Of a DNA stretch of 64,000 bases, positions 13,965 to 36,562 are shown in pieces. The DNA lies in the NCBI RefSeq assembly GCF_903970965.1, contig NZ_CAJCKW010000001.1:62001-126000 (forward strand). The letters run 5' to 3'. How positions within the stretch are numbered: the stretch's first letter is position 1; the number at the start of each line of letters is the position of its first letter. Below the pieces are notes generated by a model, which did no database searches, was not told the DNA's origin, and saw nothing but the letters and a program-made list of their open reading frames with translations. Both the position numbers and the translations under genes were made by a program. The DNA is from Aureimonas sp. ME7 (GTDB taxonomy: Bacteria; Pseudomonadota; Alphaproteobacteria; Rhizobiales; Rhizobiaceae).

Positions 13965-13977
13965 GGGGCGCTGAGGG

Positions 13978-14143
13978 TATTGCGGGGCTGCCGCCCCGGC
14001 CCCCGCTCGGGAACGAATTCCCGAACCCTTCTTTTCTTTTGACAACAAAAAGGGGGCCAGCGGCCCCCTTTTTGTTGTCATGACAGATGAGGGGTCCAGG
14101 GGAAATCATTTCCCCTGGCGGGGTGCAGGGGTGGAACCCCTGC
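13978..14143. repeat. Palindrome-packed intergenic element, copy 1 (inverted partner at 23048-23209)
   Basis: A 166-base unit between the convergent ends of comM and grpE. It contains five consecutive palindromes: 13983-13998 (CGGGGC/GCCCCG), 14007-14024 (TCGGGAA/TTCCCGA), 14041-14079 (perfect 18-bp stem, 3-base loop), 14096-14118 (perfect 11-bp arms around one base) and 14125-14143 (GCAGGGGT/ACCCCTGC). The whole unit reappears in inverted orientation 9 kb away, nearly base for base; differences lie mainly in loops or are compensated within stems. It behaves like a REP/BIME-type mosaic repeat that includes a bidirectional terminator. Confidence 0.9.
14041..14079. terminator. Bidirectional intrinsic terminator for comM and grpE
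   Basis: Perfect 18-bp stem with loop AGC. Five A residues precede the GC core GGGGGCC and five T residues follow GGCCCCC, so it is an intrinsic terminator in both directions and can end both convergent transcripts. It is the central module of the repeat element. Confidence 0.9.
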
Positions 14144-14160
14144 TAAATCTCAAGCGCCTC

Positions 14161-14892
14161 TCAAGCGTCCTTGGTGCTCTCGTCCGGCACGCCGGGCTTG
14201 GTGTCGGGGCCGGGGGCGGGCGCGGCCTTGGGGCCGCCCTTGGAGACGCCGACGAGGGCGGGGCGCAGGACGCGCTCGCCGATGGCGTAGCCTTCCTGGA
14301 CGACCTGGACGACGGTGTTGGCGGGCAGGTCGGCGTTCGGGATTTCGAACATGGCCTGATGGAAGTTCGGGTCGAAGCGGGCGTTGAGGGGCTCAAGCTT
14401 CTTCACGCCGTGGCGTTCCATGGCGGACAGCATGGAGCGGCCGGTCATCTCGACGCCTTCGACGAGCGATGTGAAACCGGCGTCGCCGGATTCGCGTGCG
14501 CCTTCGGGCAGGGCCTGGATGGCGCGGTCGAGATTGTCGGAAACGGACAGCATGTCGCGGGCGAAGTTGGCGACGGCGAACTGGCGCGCGTCCTTGATCT
14601 CGCGCTCGGTGCGTCGGCGCAGATTTTCCATGTCGGCGGCGAGGCGCAGGAGGCGGTCCTTGACGTCGGCGTTCTCGGCTTCGAGCTCTGCGATGCGCGC
14701 GCGGTCGGCTTCGTTGGCGTTGTCGCCGCCCCAGGTGGGCACGGGCTCGTCGTCGATCGGGGCGTGGCCGGCGGGCGGGTTCATGTCGCCGGCGGCCGCT
14801 CCGGCGACGCCGCCGCCCTTGAAGTAGGCCTGGGCTGCGGGGCTGGCGTTGCGCTGGCTCTCGTTCGCGGTCTTGTCGGTCTCGCTCGTCAT
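14161..14892 (-). CDS. grpE: Nucleotide exchange factor GrpE
   Basis: A 243-residue GrpE, the nucleotide exchange factor that resets the DnaK chaperone. A long coiled-coil (about residues 60-110, [20 protein letters not shown] then [20 protein letters not shown]) precedes the beta-domain with [18 protein letters not shown] and [20 protein letters not shown], both GrpE hallmarks. N- and C-terminal tails are low-complexity. It follows hrcA by 125 bases on the same strand, the usual alphaproteobacterial heat-shock pairing. ATG 14892 gives the usual length; the gene ends at the repeat element. Confidence 0.96.
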
Positions 14893-15017
14893 CGAAGAGG
14901 GCGCTCCTTGGCTGTTCTACAGAAGTGGCCGGGCTGGCCGTCGCCGGAACAAGGCCGACGGATGCCCGCCGAGGCAAAAGGGGGTCGGGCCGGATATCGA
15001 ACGGGGAGGGGCGAAAA

Positions 15018-16145
15018 TCAAGGCCGGCGCGAGGGGGCCGTTCCCGACAGGAGGCGCGACACGAGGCGGGCGGTGTAGTCCACCATCGGCACGATCCGGC
15101 GATAGTTGAGGCGGGTCGGACCGATCACGCCGACGGCGCCGATCACCCGGTCGTCGCCGTCGCTATAGGGCGCGATGACGAGCGAGGAGCCGGACATGGA
15201 GAACAGCTTGTTTTCCGAGCCGATGAAGATGCGAACGCCGTTGCCCGATTCCGCCAGATCGATCAGCTCCATGATCGAGCTCTTCGATTCGAGGTCGTCG
15301 AAGAGGTGGCGCAGGCGTTCCAGATCCGGCGCGTCGTTGGCGCTGCCCAGAAGGTTGGCGCGCCCGCGCACGATGAGGCGCGAAGGCTGGCCCGCCCCTT
15401 CGCCCGACCAGACGGCGAGCCCCGCCTGCACCAGCTCCTGCGAGAGGGTGTCGAGGGCGCGGGCGGTGTCGTCCTTCAGGGCGGCGATGCGCACGCGCGC
15501 TTCGCTCAATGTGCGTCCGACGACATGGGCGTTGAGAAAATTCGTGGCTTCCACCAGCTGCGAGGCGGTGATGCCGGGGGTGAGCTCGAGGACGCGGTTT
15601 TCCACCTCGCCGTTTTCGCCCACCAGCACGACGAGCGCACGGGCGGCGTCGAGGCGCACGAACTCGATGTGCTTCAGGCGGATGTCGGTCTTGGAGGCGA
15701 GAACGATGCCCGCCCCGCGCGATAGGCCGGACAAGAGCTGGGAGGCTTCGGTCAGGAGCGCGTCCACCGGGCGCCGCTCGCCCTCGGCGCGCACCCGCTC
15801 CTCGATCTCGAGGCGCTCGCGCTCGGGCAGGTCGCCGGTTTCCAGAAACGCGTCGACGAAGAAGCGCAGGCCGATCTCGGTCGGCAGGCGGCCGGCCGAA
15901 ACGTGGGGCGCGTAGATGAGGCCGAGCGCCTCCAGATCCGACATGACGTTGCGGATGGAGGCAGGCGACAGGGCGCTGGTGAGAAGGCGCGACAGGTTGC
16001 GCGAGCCCACCGGCTCGCCGGAATCCAGATAGGTGTCGACGATGAGCCGGAAGATCTCGCGCGAACGCTCGTCGAGCGTCTGGCCGAGATCGAGGCTGCG
16101 GTCGAGGTGATCGCGGGAAAAGGACAGGTTGGTGCCGAGCTTCAT
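15018..16145 (-). CDS. hrcA: Heat-inducible transcriptional repressor HrcA
   Basis: A 375-residue HrcA, which represses chaperone operons by binding CIRCE elements. The N-terminal winged helix contains [20 protein letters not shown] and [39 protein letters not shown] and the GAF-like C-terminal domain with [20 protein letters not shown] are family signatures. ATG 16145 is used because no in-frame start closer to the first conserved block exists. There is no clear Shine-Dalgarno before it, and an RpoH-like promoter lies only 12-40 bases upstream, so the leader would be extremely short. No CIRCE inverted repeat was found in its own promoter. Followed by grpE. Confidence 0.95.
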
Positions 16146-16156
16146 CACGAGATGGA

Positions 16157-16185
16157 ATATATGGGGCTCGCCCGGCGCGGCCAAG
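16157..16185 (-). promoter_or_regulatory. RpoH (sigma-32) type promoter of hrcA-grpE
   Basis: On the minus strand CTTGGC (16185-16180) is followed, after 13 bases, by CCCCATATAT (16166-16157). This matches the heat-shock sigma consensus CTTGAAA-N(11-16)-CCCCATnT well in the -10 box and moderately in the -35 box. Transcription would begin near 16150, about six bases before the hrcA ATG. RpoH control of grpE is established in alphaproteobacteria. Confidence 0.6.
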
Positions 16186-16354
16186 CGGCGGGAGGGTTCA
16201 TGCGAGGCCTTCGCGCAAGCTCGGGCTCCCGGCATGCCGCCGCCGCGCTCCCGCCTGAAGGCCCGATCGGCATGGAGCGGCCCCCGGCAGCGGAGGCCGC
16301 CCCCCTAACCCGCGGCTGGGATGTTTATTCGACCACGGCTCGAGAGGCCGAAGC

Positions 16355-17392
16355 TCAAGCGATTCCGCGTTCGGCGACAGGCGCGGGCGCTCTGATGAGC
16401 TTGGGCAGGCGCATGGCTGGTCGCTCCACGAGTCGGTGAATCACGTAGGCCAAAAGAAGCGCCGCCAGTGTCGAAAGGACGAACAAGGCGACGATCCGAT
16501 ATCCCGTCTGATTCTCCGGCACCCAGGGCATGTTGCGAAATGCGAAGGCAATGCCCAAGCCATGCACGAGATAGAACGGATAGCTGACAAGGCCGAGGAA
16601 CTGCATGGGCCGGCTGAGCAGCCAGCGGGGTTGGGAGGCCCGGACATGGGCGACGATCAGAACGGCGCCCGCCATCTCCAGGAACCGCGCTTCCCAGCCA
16701 TGTCCCAGGAAGAGGCTGGAAACCAAGAGGATCGGCACGCCGACCAGAAGCAACAGGGGCGAGCGGGCCAGGGCGCCCGGCACGTTCGCAATCGCGGCGC
16801 CCAGAAGGAACGCGGGCAGGAAAAGGGCGTATTGCGACCCTGTATGGCGGAAGACCAGGAAGCTGGGAAAGGATAGAAGAAGCGCGAGAAGCGATCGCCC
16901 GCCTGTCGCGGCCCATATGCCGAAGAGCAGGATCGACGCCACGATCTCGACCTGGAGCGACCAAAGGACGCCGTTCGTGTCACGGCTGAGGATGAACATG
17001 GTGCGCAGAACCTCGGCCGGTTCCATCGGCGCCACATAGCCGATCCGCGTGGCCAGTCCGAACAGGATGCCGGCGACGATCGAGGTGGGAAGAAGCCGCC
17101 AAAGCCGCTCGGTGATGCAGCGAGGCAAGCTTTCGATGCCGGCGTAGCGGCGATCGAACATCGACCAGAGCACGTGTCCGCTCAGAACGAAGAACACCAT
17201 CACGGCGGCATCGCTCGGCGCCACGATGTAGCCGAGGCGAGCCATGACGTTTTCGAACGGCTGATCGGCGAATTGCCGATACGTCAGCATCCAGACGCCC
17301 ATGCCCGTGAACGCCAGGATGCTGTGCCCGCCGGCGACGGCCAGAGCGGCCAATCCGCGCAGGCCATCCAGCGCATAATCTCTCGGTGCCAT
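16355..17392 (-). CDS. Acyltransferase 3 family membrane protein (OafA/YrhL-like)
   Basis: A 345-residue integral membrane O-acyltransferase of the acyltransferase-3 family, which transfers acyl groups to sugars or lipids at the envelope. The N-terminal [18 protein letters not shown], the first-loop arginine region and [10 protein letters not shown] are family signatures; about ten hydrophobic helices follow. The expected histidine is present in the first helix (VAGGHS). Substrate unknown: O-antigen, exopolysaccharide or glucan are all possible. ATG 17392 begins at the conserved block. It is a single gene sitting between hrcA and rph, two genes that are usually direct divergent neighbours in Rhizobiales, so it is probably an insertion. 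Confidence 0.85.
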
Positions 17393-17755
17393 AAGCCTGA
17401 CCTTGCATCACCGTCATCGATGGATGGTGGAAGGTCGCCCACAGCACAACCTCAGCGAATGGTTTCGCGCGGTTCGTGTAGGGGTTGTGGCGCAATGGCC
17501 ACAGAGCGTGGTTGCTCGGCCAAGTCGAGCCGAACCATGGGGTGCCAGATCGGCGAAGCGATCCGCTCAGGCCTGCGATCGAGCATCCCTGATCCAACCT
17601 GGGGTTCAAGTTCGGTCGGCCGACATGCAGGCATGGGCGCGGGTCATGTGCCGCGCCGCCCGCTCCGCGAGCCGCTGCCGACAGCCACCGCTTTCGGTCC
17701 CAGTCCTGATGCGTTAAGGAGACCGCAACATCTTCCCGAATTGAGCGGACATCTC
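17393..17755. other. Divergent intergenic region between acyltransferase and rph
   Basis: 363 bases carrying the promoters of both genes. An open frame runs through it into rph, but its product upstream of the rph ATG is not protein-like. A TTCAAGTTC string near 17605 recalls a tRNA T-loop, but no stems pair around it. I see no transposon ends or recognised RNA. Confidence 0.5.
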
Positions 17756-18475
17756 ATGCGGCCTTCCAAACGCCAGAACGACGAATTGCGGCTTGTGACG
17801 CTGGAGCGCGGTCCTTCGCGCCATGCGGAAGGCTCGTGCCTCGTGCGGTTCGGCGACACCCATGTCCTGTGCACGGCGAGCCTCGAGGAGCGCGTGCCGG
17901 GCTGGCTGAAGAACACCGGCAAGGGCTGGGTCACGGCCGAATACGGCATGCTGCCGCGCGCCACGGGCGAGCGCATGCGCCGCGAGGCGGCGTCGGGCAA
18001 GCAGTCCGGCCGCACGCAGGAGATCCAGCGCCTGATCGGCCGCTCGCTTCGCGCCGTGGTCGATCTCCAGGCGCTCGGCGAGCGCCAGATCACGGTGGAC
18101 TGCGACGTGATCCAGGCGGACGGGGGCACGCGCACGGCGGCTATCACCGGCGCCTTCGTCGCCCTGTCGGACTGCCTTGCCTGGATGGAAGCGCGCGGCA
18201 TGGTCAAGCGCGACGCCGTCCTGAAGGACCACGTGGCGGCGATCTCCTGCGGCATCCATGGGGGGACGCCCGTGCTAGATCTCGACTATCTCGAGGATTC
18301 GGCCGCAGAGACCGACGCCAACTTCGTGATGACCGGGCGCGGCGGCATCGTCGAGATCCAGGGGACTGCCGAGGGCGAGCCCTTCTCCAAGGACGAGCTG
18401 GCGGCACTCTTGAGCCTTGCCGAAGGCGGCATCGCCACGCTGGTGGAAAAGCAGCGCGCGGTGCTGGCGGGCTGA
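17756..18475 (+). CDS. rph: Ribonuclease PH
   Basis: A 239-residue phosphorolytic 3'-to-5' exoribonuclease that trims tRNA 3' ends. [19 protein letters not shown] begins the protein directly at ATG 17756. The phosphate- and RNA-binding block [19 protein letters not shown], then [19 protein letters not shown], and the catalytic [19 protein letters not shown] segment are all RNase PH hallmarks. Length matches the family (238-240 aa). Longer in-frame starts upstream add only intergenic sequence. It is followed by rdgB 61 bases later, the usual rph-rdgB-hemW order. Confidence 0.97.
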
Positions 18476-18536
18476 TCCGCCCCCGCGAAAGCCTCGCCCC
18501 GTAACCTCCAACCGAACCCGAAGCGCTCCCGAACCC

Positions 18537-19190
18537 ATGGCCAACGATCTGCCCCTCGATCCGAACCGCGGCCCGCTTCTGGTCGCCAGCCACAACGGCG
18601 GCAAGATCGCGGAATTCCGCGAGCTTCTCGGACCCCTCGGCTTCCAGGTCGTCTCGGCGGCCGACAAGGGGCTGCCCGAGCCGGAGGAAACCGGCTCGAC
18701 CTTCGAGGAAAACGCCCGGATCAAGGCGCTGGCGGCCGCGCGCGCCACCGGGCTGCCCGCCCTGTCGGACGATTCCGGGCTCGCGGTCGATGCGCTGGGC
18801 GGTGATCCCGGCATCTATTCCGCCCGCTGGGCCGGGCCGGGCAAGGACTTCACGATGGCGATGCGCAACGTGGAAGAGAAGCTGCAGACGGCGGGCGCCA
18901 CCGACCCGTCGCGCCGCACGGGGCGCTTCGTCGCCGTTCTCTGCCTCGCCTTTCCGGATGGGCAGACGCGCGAGTTCCGCGGCGAGATCGAGGGAACGAT
19001 CGTCTGGCCGCCCCGAGGCCAGCTCGGCTTCGGCTACGATCCGTGCTTCCTGCCCGAGGGCGAGACGCGGACCTTCGGCGAGATGAGCTCCCATGAGAAG
19101 CACGGCTGGGTGCCGGGGCAGGAAACCGCGCTGTCGCACCGCGCCCGGGCCTTCCGCCTGTTTGCGGGGGAAGCCTTGGGCGTCTCGTGA
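18537..19190 (+). CDS. rdgB: Non-canonical purine NTP pyrophosphatase RdgB (XTP/dITP)
   Basis: A 217-residue house-cleaning enzyme of the Ham1/RdgB family that hydrolyses dITP and XTP to keep deaminated purines out of [20 protein letters not shown] at residues 14-30 is the nucleotide-binding entry; [40 protein letters not shown] and the C-terminal SHRARAF are diagnostic. ATG 18537 gives the usual length. The stop overlaps a GTG that could start hemW (GTGA), so the genes are translationally adjacent. Confidence 0.96.
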
Positions 19191-19192
19191 AC

Positions 19193-20386
19193 ATGGCTGT
19201 CCGCCAGCTCGCCGCGATCCGCCCCTATACGCCCCCTGAAGGCGATCCGGGCTTCGGCGTCTATGTCCACTGGCCGTTCTGCGCGGCCAAATGCCCCTAT
19301 TGCGACTTCAACAGCCACGTGCGGCACGAGCCGGTGGATCAGGCGCGCTTCGTCGCCGCCTTCCGGCGTGAGATCGCGGCGCAAGGCGCGCGCTCGCGTG
19401 GGCAAACTGTCACCTCGATCTTCCTAGGCGGCGGCACGCCGAGCCTGATGGAGCCCGAAACGGTGGCCGCGATCCTCGACACGGTCGCCGCCACCTGGAC
19501 CGTCGCGGACGGCGCCGAGATCACGCTGGAGGCGAACCCCTCCTCCGTCGAGGCGACGCGCTTTCGGGGCTACCGGGCGGCCGGCGTCAACCGCATCTCG
19601 CTCGGCGTCCAAGCGCTGAACGACGCGGACCTGCGCCGGCTCGGTCGCCTGCACGACACGGCCCAGGCGCTCGGCGCGATCCGCCTCGCGCGCGAAATCT
19701 TCCCGCGCCTGTCCTTCGACCTGATCTATGCCCGCCCCGGCCAGGGCGTCGAAGCCTGGGAGCGCGAGATCGTCCAGGCGATCGATCTCGCCGCAGACCA
19801 CCTGTCGCTCTACCAGCTCACCATCGAGGAAGGCACCGTGTTCCACGCCCTTCACAAGGCGGGCAAGCTCGTGGTGCCGGACGGCGAACTCTCGGCCGAG
19901 CTCTACGAGGCGACGCAGGCCATCACCCGCGCCCACGGCCTGCCGGCCTACGAGATTTCCAACCACGCGGTGCCGGGCGCAGAATCGCGCCACAACCTGA
20001 CCTATTGGCGCTACGGCCTTTATGCGGGCGTCGGCCCCGGCGCGCATGGGCGGCTGCCGGGGGCGGACGGGCGCCGCCACGCGGTCGCCAACGAGAAGCA
20101 TCCCGAAACCTGGCTGCGCATGGTGGAGGACTGGGAGACCGGCTCGGTGGAGGACGTGGCGCTCGCCGACCACGAGCAGGCGGACGAACTGATGCTCATG
20201 GGCCTTCGCCTCACTGAGGGCATCGACCTTCTTCGCTGGAGCGCCCTGTCGGGCCGCCCCATCGACGCCGATGTGGAAAGCGATCTCGTGGGCCACGGCA
20301 TGCTGGAGCGCCTGGGTAACCACCGCATCCGCGCCACCCCCGCCGGCATGCTGGTTCTCGACGCCGTGGTGGCGGACCTCGCGTGA
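19193..20386 (+). CDS. hemW: Radical SAM heme chaperone HemW
   Basis: A 397-residue radical SAM protein of the HemW family (formerly called oxygen-independent coproporphyrinogen oxidase-like). The cluster motif [10 protein letters not shown] is at about residues 28-37; it has CxxxCxxC followed by F rather than the fourth cysteine that distinguishes true HemN, which supports the chaperone assignment. [20 protein letters not shown] and the C-terminal HemN_C region ([13 protein letters not shown]) are present. HemW inserts heme into apo-cytochromes. ATG 19193 is used; GTG 19187, overlapping the rdgB stop, is an equal alternative. Standard rph-rdgB-hemW gene order. Confidence 0.95.
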
Positions 20387-20709
20387 GCGCCTTGCCGGTC
20401 TATGCGCTGGCGGCGCTGGCCGAGATCGCCGGCTGCTTCGCGTTCTTCGCCGTTCTGCGCGGCGGAGCCTCGCGGCTCTGGCTCGTGGCCGGCATCCTGG
20501 CGCTCGCGGTCTTCGCTCTCGCGCTCACGCGCGTCGAGACGGAGTTCGCCGGGCGCGCCTATGCCGCCTATGGCGGGGTCTACATCCTCGCCTCGCTTCT
20601 TTGGATGTGGGGCGCGGAAGGGGCGCGGCCGGATCGGTTCGATCTCGTGGGCGCGGCGCTTTGCTTGAGTGGTGCCGCCGTGATCCTCTGGGCGCCGAGG
20701 GGCGCATGA
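20383..20709 (+). CDS. YnfA family inner-membrane protein
   Basis: A 108-residue protein with four predicted transmembrane helices, matching the YnfA/UPF0060 family. The blocks [20 protein letters not shown], then [20 protein letters not shown] and [20 protein letters not shown], are diagnostic. Members are related to small multidrug resistance transporters and E. coli YnfA has been linked to efflux; the substrate here is unknown. The start is GTG 20383, overlapping the hemW stop, and the stop overlaps the ATG of rsmI, so it is embedded in a coupled gene chain. Confidence 0.9.
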
Positions 20710-21626
20710 GCGAGGACGATCGCGATCTACCGGAAACGACGGAGCGCACAGGCTTCACCCTGCGCGGTGCCCCCCTTTCCGCGTCCCGCCCCGAGCCGGG
20801 CCTTTATCTTGTGGCCACGCCCATCGGCAACCTGTCCGACATCACGCTGCGCGCGCTCGAGATTATCGCCGGCGCCGATGTCCTCGCCTGCGAGGACACG
20901 CGCCAGACCGGCAAGCTTCTCCAGCGCTACGGCATCCGCCGGCGCACCTTTTCCTACCACGAGCACAACGCGACGAGTGCGGGCGAGGCGCTTCTGGCCG
21001 AACTGGAAGCCGGGCGCTCCGTCGCTCTCGTGTCCGACGCCGGCACGCCGCTTGTTTCCGACCCCGGCTTTCCGCTGGGCGCAGAGGCCATCGCGCGCGG
21101 CATTCCCGTCGTCCCCATTCCCGGCGCTTCCGCGCCGCTCGCCGCCCTTCTCGCCTCAGGCCTGCCCTCGGACGCCTTCTTCTTCGCCGGCTTTCTGCCG
21201 CCGAAGGAAAGCGCCCGGCGCACCCGCCTCGAAGCGCTGGCCCGCGTGCCCGGAACGCTCCTGTTCTTCGAGGCGCCGCACCGCATCGCCGAAAGCCTCG
21301 CCGACATGGCCGCCGTCTTGGGGCCGCGCTCCGGCGCCGTCTGCCGCGAGCTGACCAAGGCCTTCGAGACGATCTATCGCGGCCCGCTGCCGGATCTGGC
21401 TGCCGAGTTCGCCGCGATGGAGCGCGTGCGCGGCGAGATCGTCGTTTGCGTCGGCGGCCCGGCGGACGAGGCGGCCCCGTCCGCCGACGATGCCGACGCG
21501 ATCCTGCGCGGGCTCCTCGCCGAGATGAAGCCCGCGAAAGCCGCCCAGGAGGCGGTGAAGCTCACCGGTCTCACGCGGCGCGAGCTCTACGCCCGCGCCC
21601 TTGCCTTGAAATCCGATGGCGGCTGA
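20706..21626 (+). CDS. rsmI: 16S rRNA (cytidine1402-2'-O)-methyltransferase RsmI
   Basis: A 306-residue SAM-dependent methyltransferase that 2'-O-methylates C1402 in the 16S rRNA decoding centre. [20 protein letters not shown] near residues 33-52 is the family opening; [48 protein letters not shown] and [14 protein letters not shown] are all canonical. A ~30-residue unconserved N-terminal tail precedes the domain. ATG 20706 overlaps the ynfA stop by four bases. It is followed by yraN with an 11-base overlap, the conserved rsmI-yraN pair. Confidence 0.96.
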
Positions 21627-22002
21627 CCGCGCCACCGAGCGTTTGACGGAACGCCGCGCCCGCTTCGCCAAGGGGCATCGCGGCGAATGGCTGGCCGGTT
21701 GGGCGCTGCGCCTCAAGGGCTACCGCATCCTCGCCATACGCCACCGCACCAGGGTCGGCGAGATCGACATCATCGCCCGGCGAGGCAACACGATTGCTGT
21801 CGTTGAGGTCAAGGCGCGCGCCACCCTGGAGGCCGCGATGGACGCCGTCTCGCCCGCCAGCCAGCGCCGCATCGAGAACGCCGCCGATCTCTGGCTCGCG
21901 CGCCAGCGCGACCACGCGGCCCTGTCGCTCCGCTTCGACATCGTCGCCGTCCTCCCCCGCCGCTGGCCCGTCCACATCCCCAATGCCTGGGCTCCCGCCT
22001 GA
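21616..22002 (+). CDS. yraN: YraN family (UPF0102) putative endonuclease
   Basis: A 128-residue protein of the UPF0102/YraN family, structurally related to Holliday-junction-type and restriction-like nucleases. The core [20 protein letters not shown] (residues ~48-67) contains the E/D-x(n)-ExK metal-binding pattern (GEIDII and VEVKA). Its cellular role is not established. ATG 21616 lies inside the 3' end of rsmI, giving an 11-base overlap, and this pairing is conserved across proteobacteria. Confidence 0.92.
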
Positions 22003-22031
22003 TCTCCAAAGCAAAGGTTCCGACCCGCTCC

Positions 22032-23030
22032 ATGGCCGAATACGACCTCCTGACGATCGGCAACGCCATCGTCGACATCATCGCGCGCACCGACGACGCC
22101 TTCCTGAAGGACGCCGGCATCGAGAAGGGCGCGATGACGCTGATCGACGCCAAGCGCGCCGAAGACCTCTATGCGCGCATGGGGCCGGCCACGGAAATGT
22201 CGGGCGGCAGCGCCGGAAACACGGTCGCCGGCCTCGTCTCGCTCGGCGGCCGGGGCGCCTATTTCGGCAAGGTGTCGAGCGACCAGTTGGGCGGCATCTT
22301 CACCCACGACATCCAGGCGCTCGGCATCCACTACGAGACCGCGCCTCTTCCCGCCGAGCCGCCCACCGCCCGGTCCATGATCCTCGTCACCCCCGATGGC
22401 GAGCGCTCGATGAACACCTATCTCGGCGCCTGCGTCGAGCTTTCGACTGATGACATCGACGAGGCCGTCGTCGCCGCCTCGCGCGTCACCTATTTCGAAG
22501 GCTATCTCTGGGATCCGCCCCGCGCCAAGGACGCCATCCTCCAGGCCGCGCGCATCGCCCACGCGGCGGGGCGCGAGGTCGCCATGACCCTGTCGGACCC
22601 GTTCTGCGTCCACCGCTACCGCGCCGAGTTCCTCGACCTCCTGCGCTCGCGCACCGTCGATATCGTCTTCGCCAACGAAGCCGAGGCCCTCGCCCTCTAC
22701 GAGACCGAAATCCTCAAGGAAGCCCTCCACCACCTGGGGCAGGACACCGCCCGCCTCGCCGTCGTCACGAGAGGCTCGGACGGCTGCGTCGTCGTCGAAG
22801 GCGGCACCCGCACCGCCCATCCCGCCACCTTCGTCCCCCACGTCGTCGACACGACCGGTGCCGGAGACCTCTTCGCCGCCGGCTTCCTGCGCGGCTACAC
22901 CCAAGGCCTCGACCACGCCCAAAGCGCGCGCCTCGGCGCCATCGCCGCCGGTCACATCATCTCCCAAATCGGCCCCCGCCCGCAGACGCCCCTCGCCGAC
23001 CTGCCGGAGGCGAAGGCGATCCTGGGGTGA
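22032..23030 (+). CDS. PfkB-family carbohydrate kinase (adenosine kinase-like)
   Basis: A 332-residue ribokinase/PfkB kinase. The N-terminal YDLLTIGNAIVDIIART, the substrate-site GGSAGNTVAGLVSLGGRGAY, and the ATP-site signature DTTGAGDLFAAGFLRGYTQG (Asp in the DTTGAGD motif as catalytic base) are clear. Alphaproteobacterial proteins with this exact opening are usually annotated adenosine kinase, and that is the best guess, but other nucleosides or sugars cannot be excluded. ATG 22032 lies 29 bases after yraN. The gene ends 17 bases before the second palindromic element. Confidence 0.88.
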   Translation: MAEYDLLTIGNAIVDIIARTDDAFLKDAGIEKGAMTLIDAKRAEDLYARMGPATEMSGGSAGNTVAGLVSLGGRGAYFGKVSSDQLGGIFTHDIQALGIHYETAPLPAEPPTARSMILVTPDGERSMNTYLGACVELSTDDIDEAVVAASRVTYFEGYLWDPPRAKDAILQAARIAHAAGREVAMTLSDPFCVHRYRAEFLDLLRSRTVDIVFANEAEALALYETEILKEALHHLGQDTARLAVVTRGSDGCVVVEGGTRTAHPATFVPHVVDTTGAGDLFAAGFLRGYTQGLDHAQSARLGAIAAGHIISQIGPRPQTPLADLPEAKAILG

Positions 23031-23047
23031 GGGGCGCTTGGGGCATC

Positions 23048-23209
23048 GCAGGGGTTCCACCCCTGCACCCCGCCAGGGGAATGATTCCCCTGGACCCTCA
23101 TCCTGGTGACAACAAAAAGGGGGCCGGCGGCCCCCTTTTTGTTGTCAAAAGAAAAGAAGGGTTCGGGAATTCCTTCCCGAGCGGGGACCGGGGCGGCAGC
23201 CCCGCAATA
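23048..23209. repeat. Palindrome-packed intergenic element, copy 2 (inverted relative to 13978-14143)
   Basis: A 162-base unit between convergent pfkB-type and folD ends. In this orientation the palindromes run 23048-23066, 23073-23093, 23108-23146, 23163-23180 and 23189-23204, the mirror of copy 1. Compared with copy 1 the 18-bp terminator stem is identical and only its loop differs. The single-base-centred palindrome is one pair shorter on both arms, and the TCGGGAA stem is kept with a changed loop. Such paired changes show that structure is conserved, not only sequence. Confidence 0.9.
23108..23146. terminator. Bidirectional intrinsic terminator for the PfkB-type gene and folD
   Basis: Perfect 18-bp stem with loop GGC, A5 before GGGGGCC and T5 after GGCCCCC. 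It can terminate both converging transcripts. Stem bases are identical to the terminator at 14041-14079. Confidence 0.9.
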
Positions 23210-23223
23210 GCCCCACGTACTCC

Positions 23224-36151: not shown

Positions 36152-36170
36152 GGCGGCCGGAATGGCCGCC
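36152..36170 (-). promoter_or_regulatory. GC hairpin between cobalamin aptamer and cbtB ribosome-binding site
   Basis: GGCGGCC/GGCCGCC with loop ATTCC (as read on the minus strand) sits four bases upstream of the GGAGG of cbtB and 12 bases downstream of the aptamer. It has no T-tract. It may form part of the riboswitch expression platform. Confidence 0.5.
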
Positions 36171-36182
36171 TTGGCAACGGAT

Positions 36183-36384
36183 GGCAGGTCTCCTGGCTCA
36201 CGGGTCGTCGGCACTCCTCCTGCCTTCCCGGACGAAAACCGTCCAGTGGCGTTTCCGATGGGTGAAAACCCATCGGCGGAGGCGCCTCGCCGCTCTACAG
36301 TCGCGGGGTCGGCTGCGATACGGGCCCCGAATTCGGTCGGCCCTTCGCATTCCCTCTTAGCCCGCACCCGACACTGCCGGAGCG
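36183..36384 (-). promoter_or_regulatory. Cobalamin (AdoCbl) riboswitch
   Basis: Reading the minus strand, the conserved B12-box elements occur in order: GGTGCGGGCTAAGAGGGAAT at the 5' end, CCGCGACTGTAG in the middle, then a hairpin GCCGATGGG/CCCATCGG, GCCACTGG, CCGGGAAGGC, GACGACCCGTGAGCC and AGGAGACCTGCC at the 3' end. These match the established cobalamin riboswitch consensus. The aptamer ends 49 bases upstream of cbtB and should repress cbtB-cbtA-cobU-cobW-cobN-cobO when adenosylcobalamin is plentiful. The 178 bases further upstream (to 36562) hold the promoter and no gene. Confidence 0.95.
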
Positions 36385-36562
36385 GGACCATCCGCCGCCC
36401 AGGATAAACGGGTTCGGCCCGCAGTCAATCGGAGCGAAGCGGCAGGTGGCCTCCTTCGCGGACTGCGACCCAGACTGGGCGGACTCCGGACACGCGCCTC
36501 GACGGCGCACGTTCGTCATCGATGCGATGGGTCTCGCATGGGATCGTCCGCCGCTCCCATGT

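Follow-up and report, generated by a model that had tools for sequence, protein, structure and literature searches.

Intergenic nested-palindrome repeats of Aureimonas retain their pairing while their sequence changes and vary in orientation at shared sites

The 64,000-nucleotide stretch of Aureimonas sp. ME7 analysed here (contig NZ_CAJCKW010000001.1, positions 62,001 to 126,000; hereafter the window) carries two oppositely oriented copies of an intergenic repeat, each a single nested palindrome, which belong to a family of at least 125 copies in the genus. Pairing within this element is retained while its sequence changes, above all in the central palindrome P3, and the whole unit is found in either orientation at shared sites. 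We propose, with somewhat better than even confidence, that the arms of these nested palindromes are kept complementary at the DNA level by template switching, that the unit flips in place, that copies are partly exchanged by conversion, and that recombination between two of them inverted a 9-kb block of genes. More tentatively, we suggest a DNA-level structural element, neither RNA gene nor transposon, with long-kept sites, pairing renewed by template switching, an own paired 41-bp core in most copies, and inversion in place.

When the window was compared with itself by blastn (E up to 1e-3), the sole pairs listed were the two copies matching one another, in both relative orientations, and each copy matching its own reverse complement. 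Positions 13972-14163 align with 23215-23028 at 90% identity over 192 bp (E 2e-65), the whole intergenic spaces agree in 178 of 201 alignment columns, and the longest exact run common to both is 44 bp. A first-pass annotation of this DNA had correctly placed two near-identical copies in opposite orientation, each with the same ordered set of five palindromes; the likeness proved longer than noted there, extending nearly from stop codon to stop codon. Copy 1 sits between the convergent genes yifB (end 13964) and grpE (end 14161), and copy 2 between pfkB (end 23030) and folD (end 23224). Two differences between the copies described in that annotation were also recovered: P4 has lost a base pair on both arms (GGGGAAATCATTTCCCC versus GGGGAATCATTCCCC), and the TCGGGAA stem of P2 pairs in both copies though its loop has changed (CGAA versus GGAA). 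What had been read as a perfect 18-bp bidirectional terminator is the palindrome P3, which does have terminator-like A/T tracts but a stem of 19 bp with a 3-nt loop.

The five palindromes are parts of one larger nested palindrome, a feature that the first-pass annotation had overlooked, because each window copy aligns with its reverse complement (71% identity over 229 bp in copy 1 and 205 bp in copy 2, blastn). Every copy reads outer stem-P1-S1[P2-S2[P3]-P4]-P5, where S1 and S2 are long-range stems, and measures about 195 bp between the flanking stop codons (Table 1). Copy 1 as RNA has predicted folding energies of -113.6 kcal/mol on one strand and -108.2 kcal/mol on the other (z -10.3 and -10.1), with P1 and P5 pairing chiefly with one another; under DNA parameters these two become separate hairpins and the remainder folds as in the RNA model. 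Every copy is able to adopt the nested form on either strand. The outer 20 nt on either side are mutually complementary (7.34 versus 5.88 in shuffled sequence, 0 of 300 shuffles as high), alike in convergent, tandem and divergent settings, yet their sequence is specific to the copy, and the zone 40-60 nt out has no mutual complementarity. An outer stem of this kind would explain why the median distance between elements and stop codons is only 13 bp (137 stop-side flanks).

In the genome of ME7, numbered G000 here and assembled in 60 contigs, a DNA search gave 21 matches at 13 places, which rules out a local duplication as the origin of the pair. A DNA search of 61 genomes found the repeat in 15 including its own, namely 14 Aureimonas genomes and a further one from elsewhere, whose only match spans 29 bases. 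Using a covariance model built from 32 copies, we found at least 125 copies in 14 of 21 Aureimonas genomes (a hand count and lower bound, with 4-16 copies per genome among the matches listed); 120 of these were fetched for further analysis. The count in the genome and its relatives that the first-pass annotation had proposed thus yields a family, and the case that it named against itself, just two copies and no compensatory change, is refuted by this family and by the two-sided pair changes described below. The full 182-position unit is recovered entire, and partial matches occur too. In a tree of 12 proteins from the window region, the 14 element genomes split from the other seven with support 1.000, although the tree represents one region and the clade status of the 14 depends on midpoint rooting.

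In wider samples, the covariance model matched three of 121 genomes drawn from the order under stricter filters (ME7 itself and, weakly, G047 and G197) and two of 190 drawn from the class (ME7 and, weakly, G420). When a species collection was scanned for an exact pattern, only Aureimonas sp. SK2 and A. phyllosphaerae were matched. The weak matches belong to a different family of the order (G047, G197; L098-L103) and to a different order (G420; L225-L230); judged by eye from single-sequence folds, they have a similar hairpin-stem-hairpin architecture and little common sequence. Plasmid and phage collections contained no match, which rules against carriage by either, and no Rfam family scored above its gathering score on the element in the window and 20 loci given, so that no known RNA family lies on it there. 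Some individual copies are composite: in L126, L163, L171, L186, L199 and L200, P1 is replaced by, or has an insertion of, another palindromic repeat, GACGGGCGAG...CTCGCCCGTCC, perhaps a CGTC-type repetitive extragenic palindrome (REP). The copies may cluster near dnaA; seven of the 13 listed copies of G011 are on the 391-kb dnaA contig (C2), and all eight listed copies of G013 are on a 3.74-Mb contig (C1), at -0.25 to +1.25 Mb relative to dnaA.

Across 95 copies aligned to the model, 97.2% of 5183 cells were paired and 29 of 56 pairs were altered on both sides; this alignment (100 loci given, 95 matches) is fitted to the model and leans toward structure. Two-sided changes occupied 555 cells versus 141 in shuffles, and on any of five measures 0 of 500 shuffles scored as high. 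When 32 copies were aligned with MAFFT, 96.2% of cells were paired and 17 of 56 pairs were altered on both sides, in 143 cells versus 45 when shuffled. The long-range stems had fewer two-sided changes than the rest, S1 in three of six pairs (89.5-96.3% of cells paired) and S2 in two of seven (93.2%; both for the 95 copies). These data agree with the earlier suggestion of selection on, or copying through, DNA or RNA structure, and the compensatory changes in further copies that had been named as its test are present.

The change is greatest in P3, and P1, P2, P4 and P5 are better conserved in sequence. P3 is exactly 41 bp long in 97 of the 120 copies; these 97 have a mean of 0.58 mismatches per 19 pairs (53 are perfect) and display 81 distinct 5' arms. 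Loops of the 41-bp P3s are found both ways round with respect to the element (AGC 25, GCT 12; GCC 10, GGC 9). Three copies are without a full P3 (L116 and L117 in G000, L162 in G008), and copy detection is therefore not dependent on it; in L116 and L117, an arm of P3 joins directly onto the run that precedes P4, a form resembling a hairpin deleted by slippage. At seven of 10 sites shared by the close species G010, G016 and G002, at least one pair has a P3 identity of 0.80 or lower.

Selection on the sense transcript alone would favour G-U over A-C mismatches in P3. In the 53 tandem copies whose P3 is 41 bp long, we counted 15 G-U, 15 A-C and 7 other mismatches on the transcribed strand, a balance which argues either that P3 is maintained as DNA or that the two strands are equally constrained; P3 pairing looks to be kept at the DNA level. 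In the excerpts of PMC8604942 and PMC8794818, template switching during replication is reported to homogenise the arms of inverted repeats and to invert the intervening spacer. Both effects have counterparts in the present family, with P3 loops in either orientation and flips of the whole unit. On this evidence we infer that template switching is the agent of arm complementarity: it would copy one arm onto the other, keeping the two complementary in DNA, and could also invert what lies between them.

To follow the unit at orthologous positions, sites were defined by clustering the flanking genes, with the two hybrid sites of G000 counted apart and one contig-edge copy left out. The 119 copies are distributed over 33 two-flank sites, of which 25 are common to at least two genomes and eight occur in one genome; copies at orthologous sites are not independent of one another. 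Between hisB (named from Pfam) and a gene of the proteasome family (presumably hslV), the element is present in 14 of 14 element genomes and the site is empty in the seven element-less ones, where the space measures 243-277 bases versus 403-462 when filled (same measure). Over the 12 sites with at least three genomes, unit orientation has changed at least 21 times, and it differs at six of 13 two-genome sites. All 120 copies fit their assigned orientation better, with a margin of at most 6 edits in eight of them, and these close calls leave some softness in the flip count. The DNA 25-70 bp outside the element is collinear in 51 of 51 flipped pairs from the sub-clade of ME7, so that the element turns and not its neighbourhood. 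Between a solute-binding-protein gene and a permease gene (L114, L122, L136, L164 and orthologues), the element points the same way in all 11 genomes, in contrast to the other sites common to at least five genomes.

Ectopic gene conversion would in addition spread some P3 variants between copies. Five G000 copies have one common P3 type; when two of these were compared with their G004 orthologue, identity was 87% each, and seven of eight comparisons with the other four G000 copies gave higher values (89-96%), the remaining one giving 85%.

The two window copies also bound a rearrangement. In G004, G008, G010 and G016 the gene order is folD> element <grpE ... pfkB> element <yifB, versus yifB> element <grpE ... 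pfkB> element <folD in the window, which means that the whole block from grpE to pfkB is inverted with both breakpoints at elements. A yifB-grpE or pfkB-folD junction was found in none of the 20 other genomes within the sequence read around the block (G002 is split over short contigs, a number of stretches stop before reaching yifB or pfkB, and those of the seven element-less genomes do not include folD). Identities for rsmI are lowered by the use of a wrong-frame protein, with no effect on the gene order. Since the order in distant genomes is one inversion away from that of the sister species and two from that of G000, parsimony places the inversion of the 9-kb block on the ME7 lineage. Homologous recombination between the inverted pair of elements would have flipped the block; the pair is inverted in G008, as such an event requires, and direct in G004, G010 and G016. 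Among the 33 sites, only those flanking the block have exchanged partners within the sub-clade, so that inversions of this kind are rare. Within the block, the acyltransferase-like gene at 16355-17392 (-), between hrcA and rph, has no tblastn match (E 1e-8) in the stretches fetched from the 20 other genomes. In G001, the 625-bp folD-grpE space (L050) contains a tandem array of the 7-bp unit GGAGCAC.

Gene context was read with our own codon-usage caller, dropping predicted genes within 60 bp of the element and tolerating an overlap of 25 bp; on these terms none of 119 copies lies inside a gene. Of these classifiable copies, 63 are tandem, 37 convergent and 19 divergent, versus 314, 39 and 64 for other neighbouring pairs at the same loci. 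The earlier statement that the element lies exactly between convergent genes is therefore true of both window copies but not of the family as a whole. Tandem copies are closer to the upstream stop codon than to the next gene in 60 of 63 cases (median 12 versus 54 bp). In the sub-clade of ME7, P3 has A/T tracts in 15 of 21 convergent copies and in two of 36 elsewhere (three copies without P3 and one contig-edge copy left out), the p value of 2.5e-7 treating non-independent copies as independent; a P3 of this type is terminator-like on both strands. The element may serve as an orientation-independent transcript end or insulating structure, and would act as a bidirectional terminator at those convergent sites of the sub-clade where P3 has A/T tracts. 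A purely structural or selfish role is possible. REP hairpins occur between binding-protein and permease genes, and the copy at the solute-binding-protein/permease site resembles them in its place.

Several results weigh against the explanation by template switching, in-place flipping and conversion. Unrestricted template switching should yield swaps of P2 and P4 inside S1 unless these are selected against. No clear swap was seen among the 120 copies; 60 are forward on all four modules, and in the other 60 at least one module is diverged, tied or weakly reversed, the largest reversal amounting to 4 edits, so that internal inversion exchanging the two hairpins was rejected. In the nearest flanks of the 51 flipped pairs, direct exceeds inverted likeness by 24 to 19 (12 nt) and 29 to 10 (16 nt), compared with 60 to 6 and 62 to 4 in 74 same-orientation pairs; the counts thus lean against co-inversion of the flanks with the element. 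Flank lengths also differ at one flipped site, and these two observations together make replacement or reinsertion a possible cause of some flips. The same 12 sites have also changed in occupancy at least 27 times, unseen copies being counted as absent. Over 22 pairs, G010, G016 and G002 differ outside P3 too (left 0.61-1.00, right 0.70-1.00, P3 0.66-1.00), and in the MAFFT alignment one of the five measures, further pair types, was not above shuffles (90 of 500). For copies with a 41-bp P3, arm differences out of 19 average 6.27 for copies at different sites of a genome, 5.83 for orthologues and 7.44 for unrelated copies; the arms are thus no more alike within a genome than between orthologues, and exchange is partial and clear only in the group of five G000 copies. 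On the functional side, 19 of the 119 copies lie between divergent genes, and the link between A/T tracts and convergent genes fails outside the sub-clade (two of 16 convergent copies). Finally, a misassembled inversion is a residual risk in an assembly of 60 contigs, though the longest exact shared run is only 44 bp.

Selection at the RNA level alone, acting on a structured RNA of the 3' untranslated region or on a terminator whose stems drift by ordinary compensatory substitution, is a possible but rather doubtful alternative. It would account for the covariation across helices, for the closeness of the element to stop codons and of tandem copies to the upstream gene, and for the constant orientation of the solute-binding-protein/permease copy. 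However, such selection does not lead one to expect the 15:15 ratio of G-U to A-C, the divergent sites and frequent flips, or the large change of P3 among G010, G016 and G002 with few mismatches inside each copy. We consider it unlikely that the repeat is a mobile unit resembling a miniature inverted-repeat transposable element (MITE), moved by an as yet unnamed transposase, whose flips are excisions followed by reinsertion at the same place. Orthologous sites that are filled in some genomes and empty in others, complementary outer ends, unequal flank lengths at a flipped site and the lack of a clear turn of the flanks along with the element are all compatible with it, whereas the sharing of 25 of 33 sites, the low copy number per genome and the lack of plasmid or phage matches are not expected of it, nor is the lack of a Y1 transposase in the 21 genomes, in a search confined to that transposase type. 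Filled and empty sites are too diverged to read a target site duplication by eye. An attC-like site of integrons is a further candidate by virtue of the folded structure and the short distance to stop codons.

Mobilisation by a REP-associated tyrosine transposase (RAYT), as in REPs and bacterial interspersed mosaic elements (BIMEs), was a possibility raised by the first-pass annotation and is the least credible of the alternatives. The element does behave as an intergenic palindromic repeat of mosaic appearance, and to this extent the REP/BIME comparison stands. The Y1 (RAYT-type) transposase domain PF01797, on the other hand, was found in none of the 21 genus genomes and in five of 14 control genomes, which rules out a RAYT as the mobilising agent unless a diverged one escapes PF01797, and a single nested unit of about 165-195 bp differs from the 20-40-bp palindrome of REPs given in the excerpt of PMC3733652. 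The same annotation had considered the pair a possible substrate for recombination that inverts the block. The block is indeed inverted relative to G004, G008, G010 and G016, with elements at both orthologous sites, but by one event only. That an inverted pair flanks a block whose orientation differs between species might suggest a programmed inversion switch, which we regard as very improbable: all four relatives with both elements have the other order and a single event is most parsimonious, the block contains housekeeping genes, and the pair forms direct repeats in three of the four species.

The family offers a natural series for tracing arm homogenisation, spacer inversion, ectopic conversion and repeat-mediated inversion across about two dozen shared sites. 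Covariation, which is usually taken as proof of RNA structure, here seems to be at least in part the product of a DNA-level process. The elements also allow a direct test of their role as orientation-independent transcript ends or insulators. Should the elements of G047, G197 and G420 have the same architecture, with little sequence in common, the repeat would belong to a wider alphaproteobacterial class.

Table 1. Coordinates in the window of the two element copies, the parts of copy 1 and the inverted block; block gene names are our reading of the proteins
Feature	Position	Strand	Basis
Element copy 1 with outer stem, entire yifB/grpE intergenic space	13965..14160	+	90% match to copy 2 over 192 bp; self reverse-complement match of 229 bp
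Element copy 1, core P1-P5	13978..14143	+	window, genome and family searches
P1 hairpin, CGGGGC-TGCC-GCCCCG	13983..13998	+	folds, covariation
S1 5' strand, CCCCGC, partner 14118-14123	14001..14006	+	folds; one pair G-C to A-U in 4 of 32 copies
P2 hairpin, TCGGGAA-CGAA-TTCCCGA	14007..14024	+	fold, covariation
S2 5' strand, ACCCTTC, partner 14089-14095	14025..14031	+	fold, covariation
P3, 41-bp palindrome, 19-bp stem and 3-nt loop; A tract/T tract, bidirectional terminator-like in copy 1	14040..14080	+	P3 comparison, covariation
S2 3' strand, GAGGGGT	14089..14095	+	fold, covariation
P4 hairpin, CAGGGGAAA-TCA-TTTCCCCTG	14097..14117	+	fold, covariation
S1 3' strand, GCGGGG	14118..14123	+	folds, covariation
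P5 hairpin, GCAGGGGTGGAACCCCTGC	14125..14143	+	fold, covariation
Block grpE(-) hrcA(-) acyltransferase(-) rph(+) rdgB(+) hemW(+) SMR(+) rsmI(+) yraN(+) pfkB(+)	14161..23030	.	gene order versus sister species
Element copy 2 with outer stem, entire pfkB/folD intergenic space	23031..23223	-	blastn, window versus itself
Element copy 2, core P1-P5, P1 adjoining folD	23048..23209	-	window, genome and family searches

Elsewhere in the window, a cobalamin riboswitch was detected at 36166-36407 (-) with 101.6 bits.

Among known systems, ERIC is an intergenic repeat of comparable type, Brucella belongs to the same bacterial order as Aureimonas, and RIME and Sm are intergenic mosaic repeats of that order; we know of no copy-specific core or in-place flips in RIME. 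RIME and Sm of rhizobia, mentioned in PMC2245857, resemble the Aureimonas element in being intergenic and mosaic, a likeness drawn by description only. The Bru-RS1/2 repeats of Brucella, palindromic and intergenic with 103-118 bp in the excerpt of PMC2267715, are shorter; the Aureimonas element, with five hairpins nested in two long-range stems, is likewise set apart from them by description only. REPs appear in the excerpt of PMC3733652 as intergenic palindromic repeats, many of them downstream of genes, with a high copy number. Both the REP/BIME classes GTAG and CGTC and the Aureimonas element are intergenic and palindromic, but the former have a short unit, in contrast to a nested one with 4-16 listed copies per genome and no Y1 transposase found. 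GTAG or CGTC, counted at any position in the unit, occurs in 53 of 120 copies on the element strand and in 58 on the other. With bidirectional intrinsic terminators the element shares A/T tracts beside a G/C stem, in the P3 of most convergent copies of the sub-clade; unlike them, P3 is mostly without an A/T tract in other contexts and clades, with few exceptions. The likeness to inverted repeats maintained by template switching lies in arm homogenisation and spacer inversion, but the events in the excerpts of PMC8604942 and PMC8794818 concern single genes, whereas the Aureimonas repeat is a family that seems to evolve in this manner at many sites. In searches of open-licence papers, no title or abstract listed describes this repeat for Aureimonas, and we rate it as a new family, an unusual variant of the REP-, ERIC-, RIME- and Bru-RS-type repeats that is distinguished from RIME and Bru-RS by its description.

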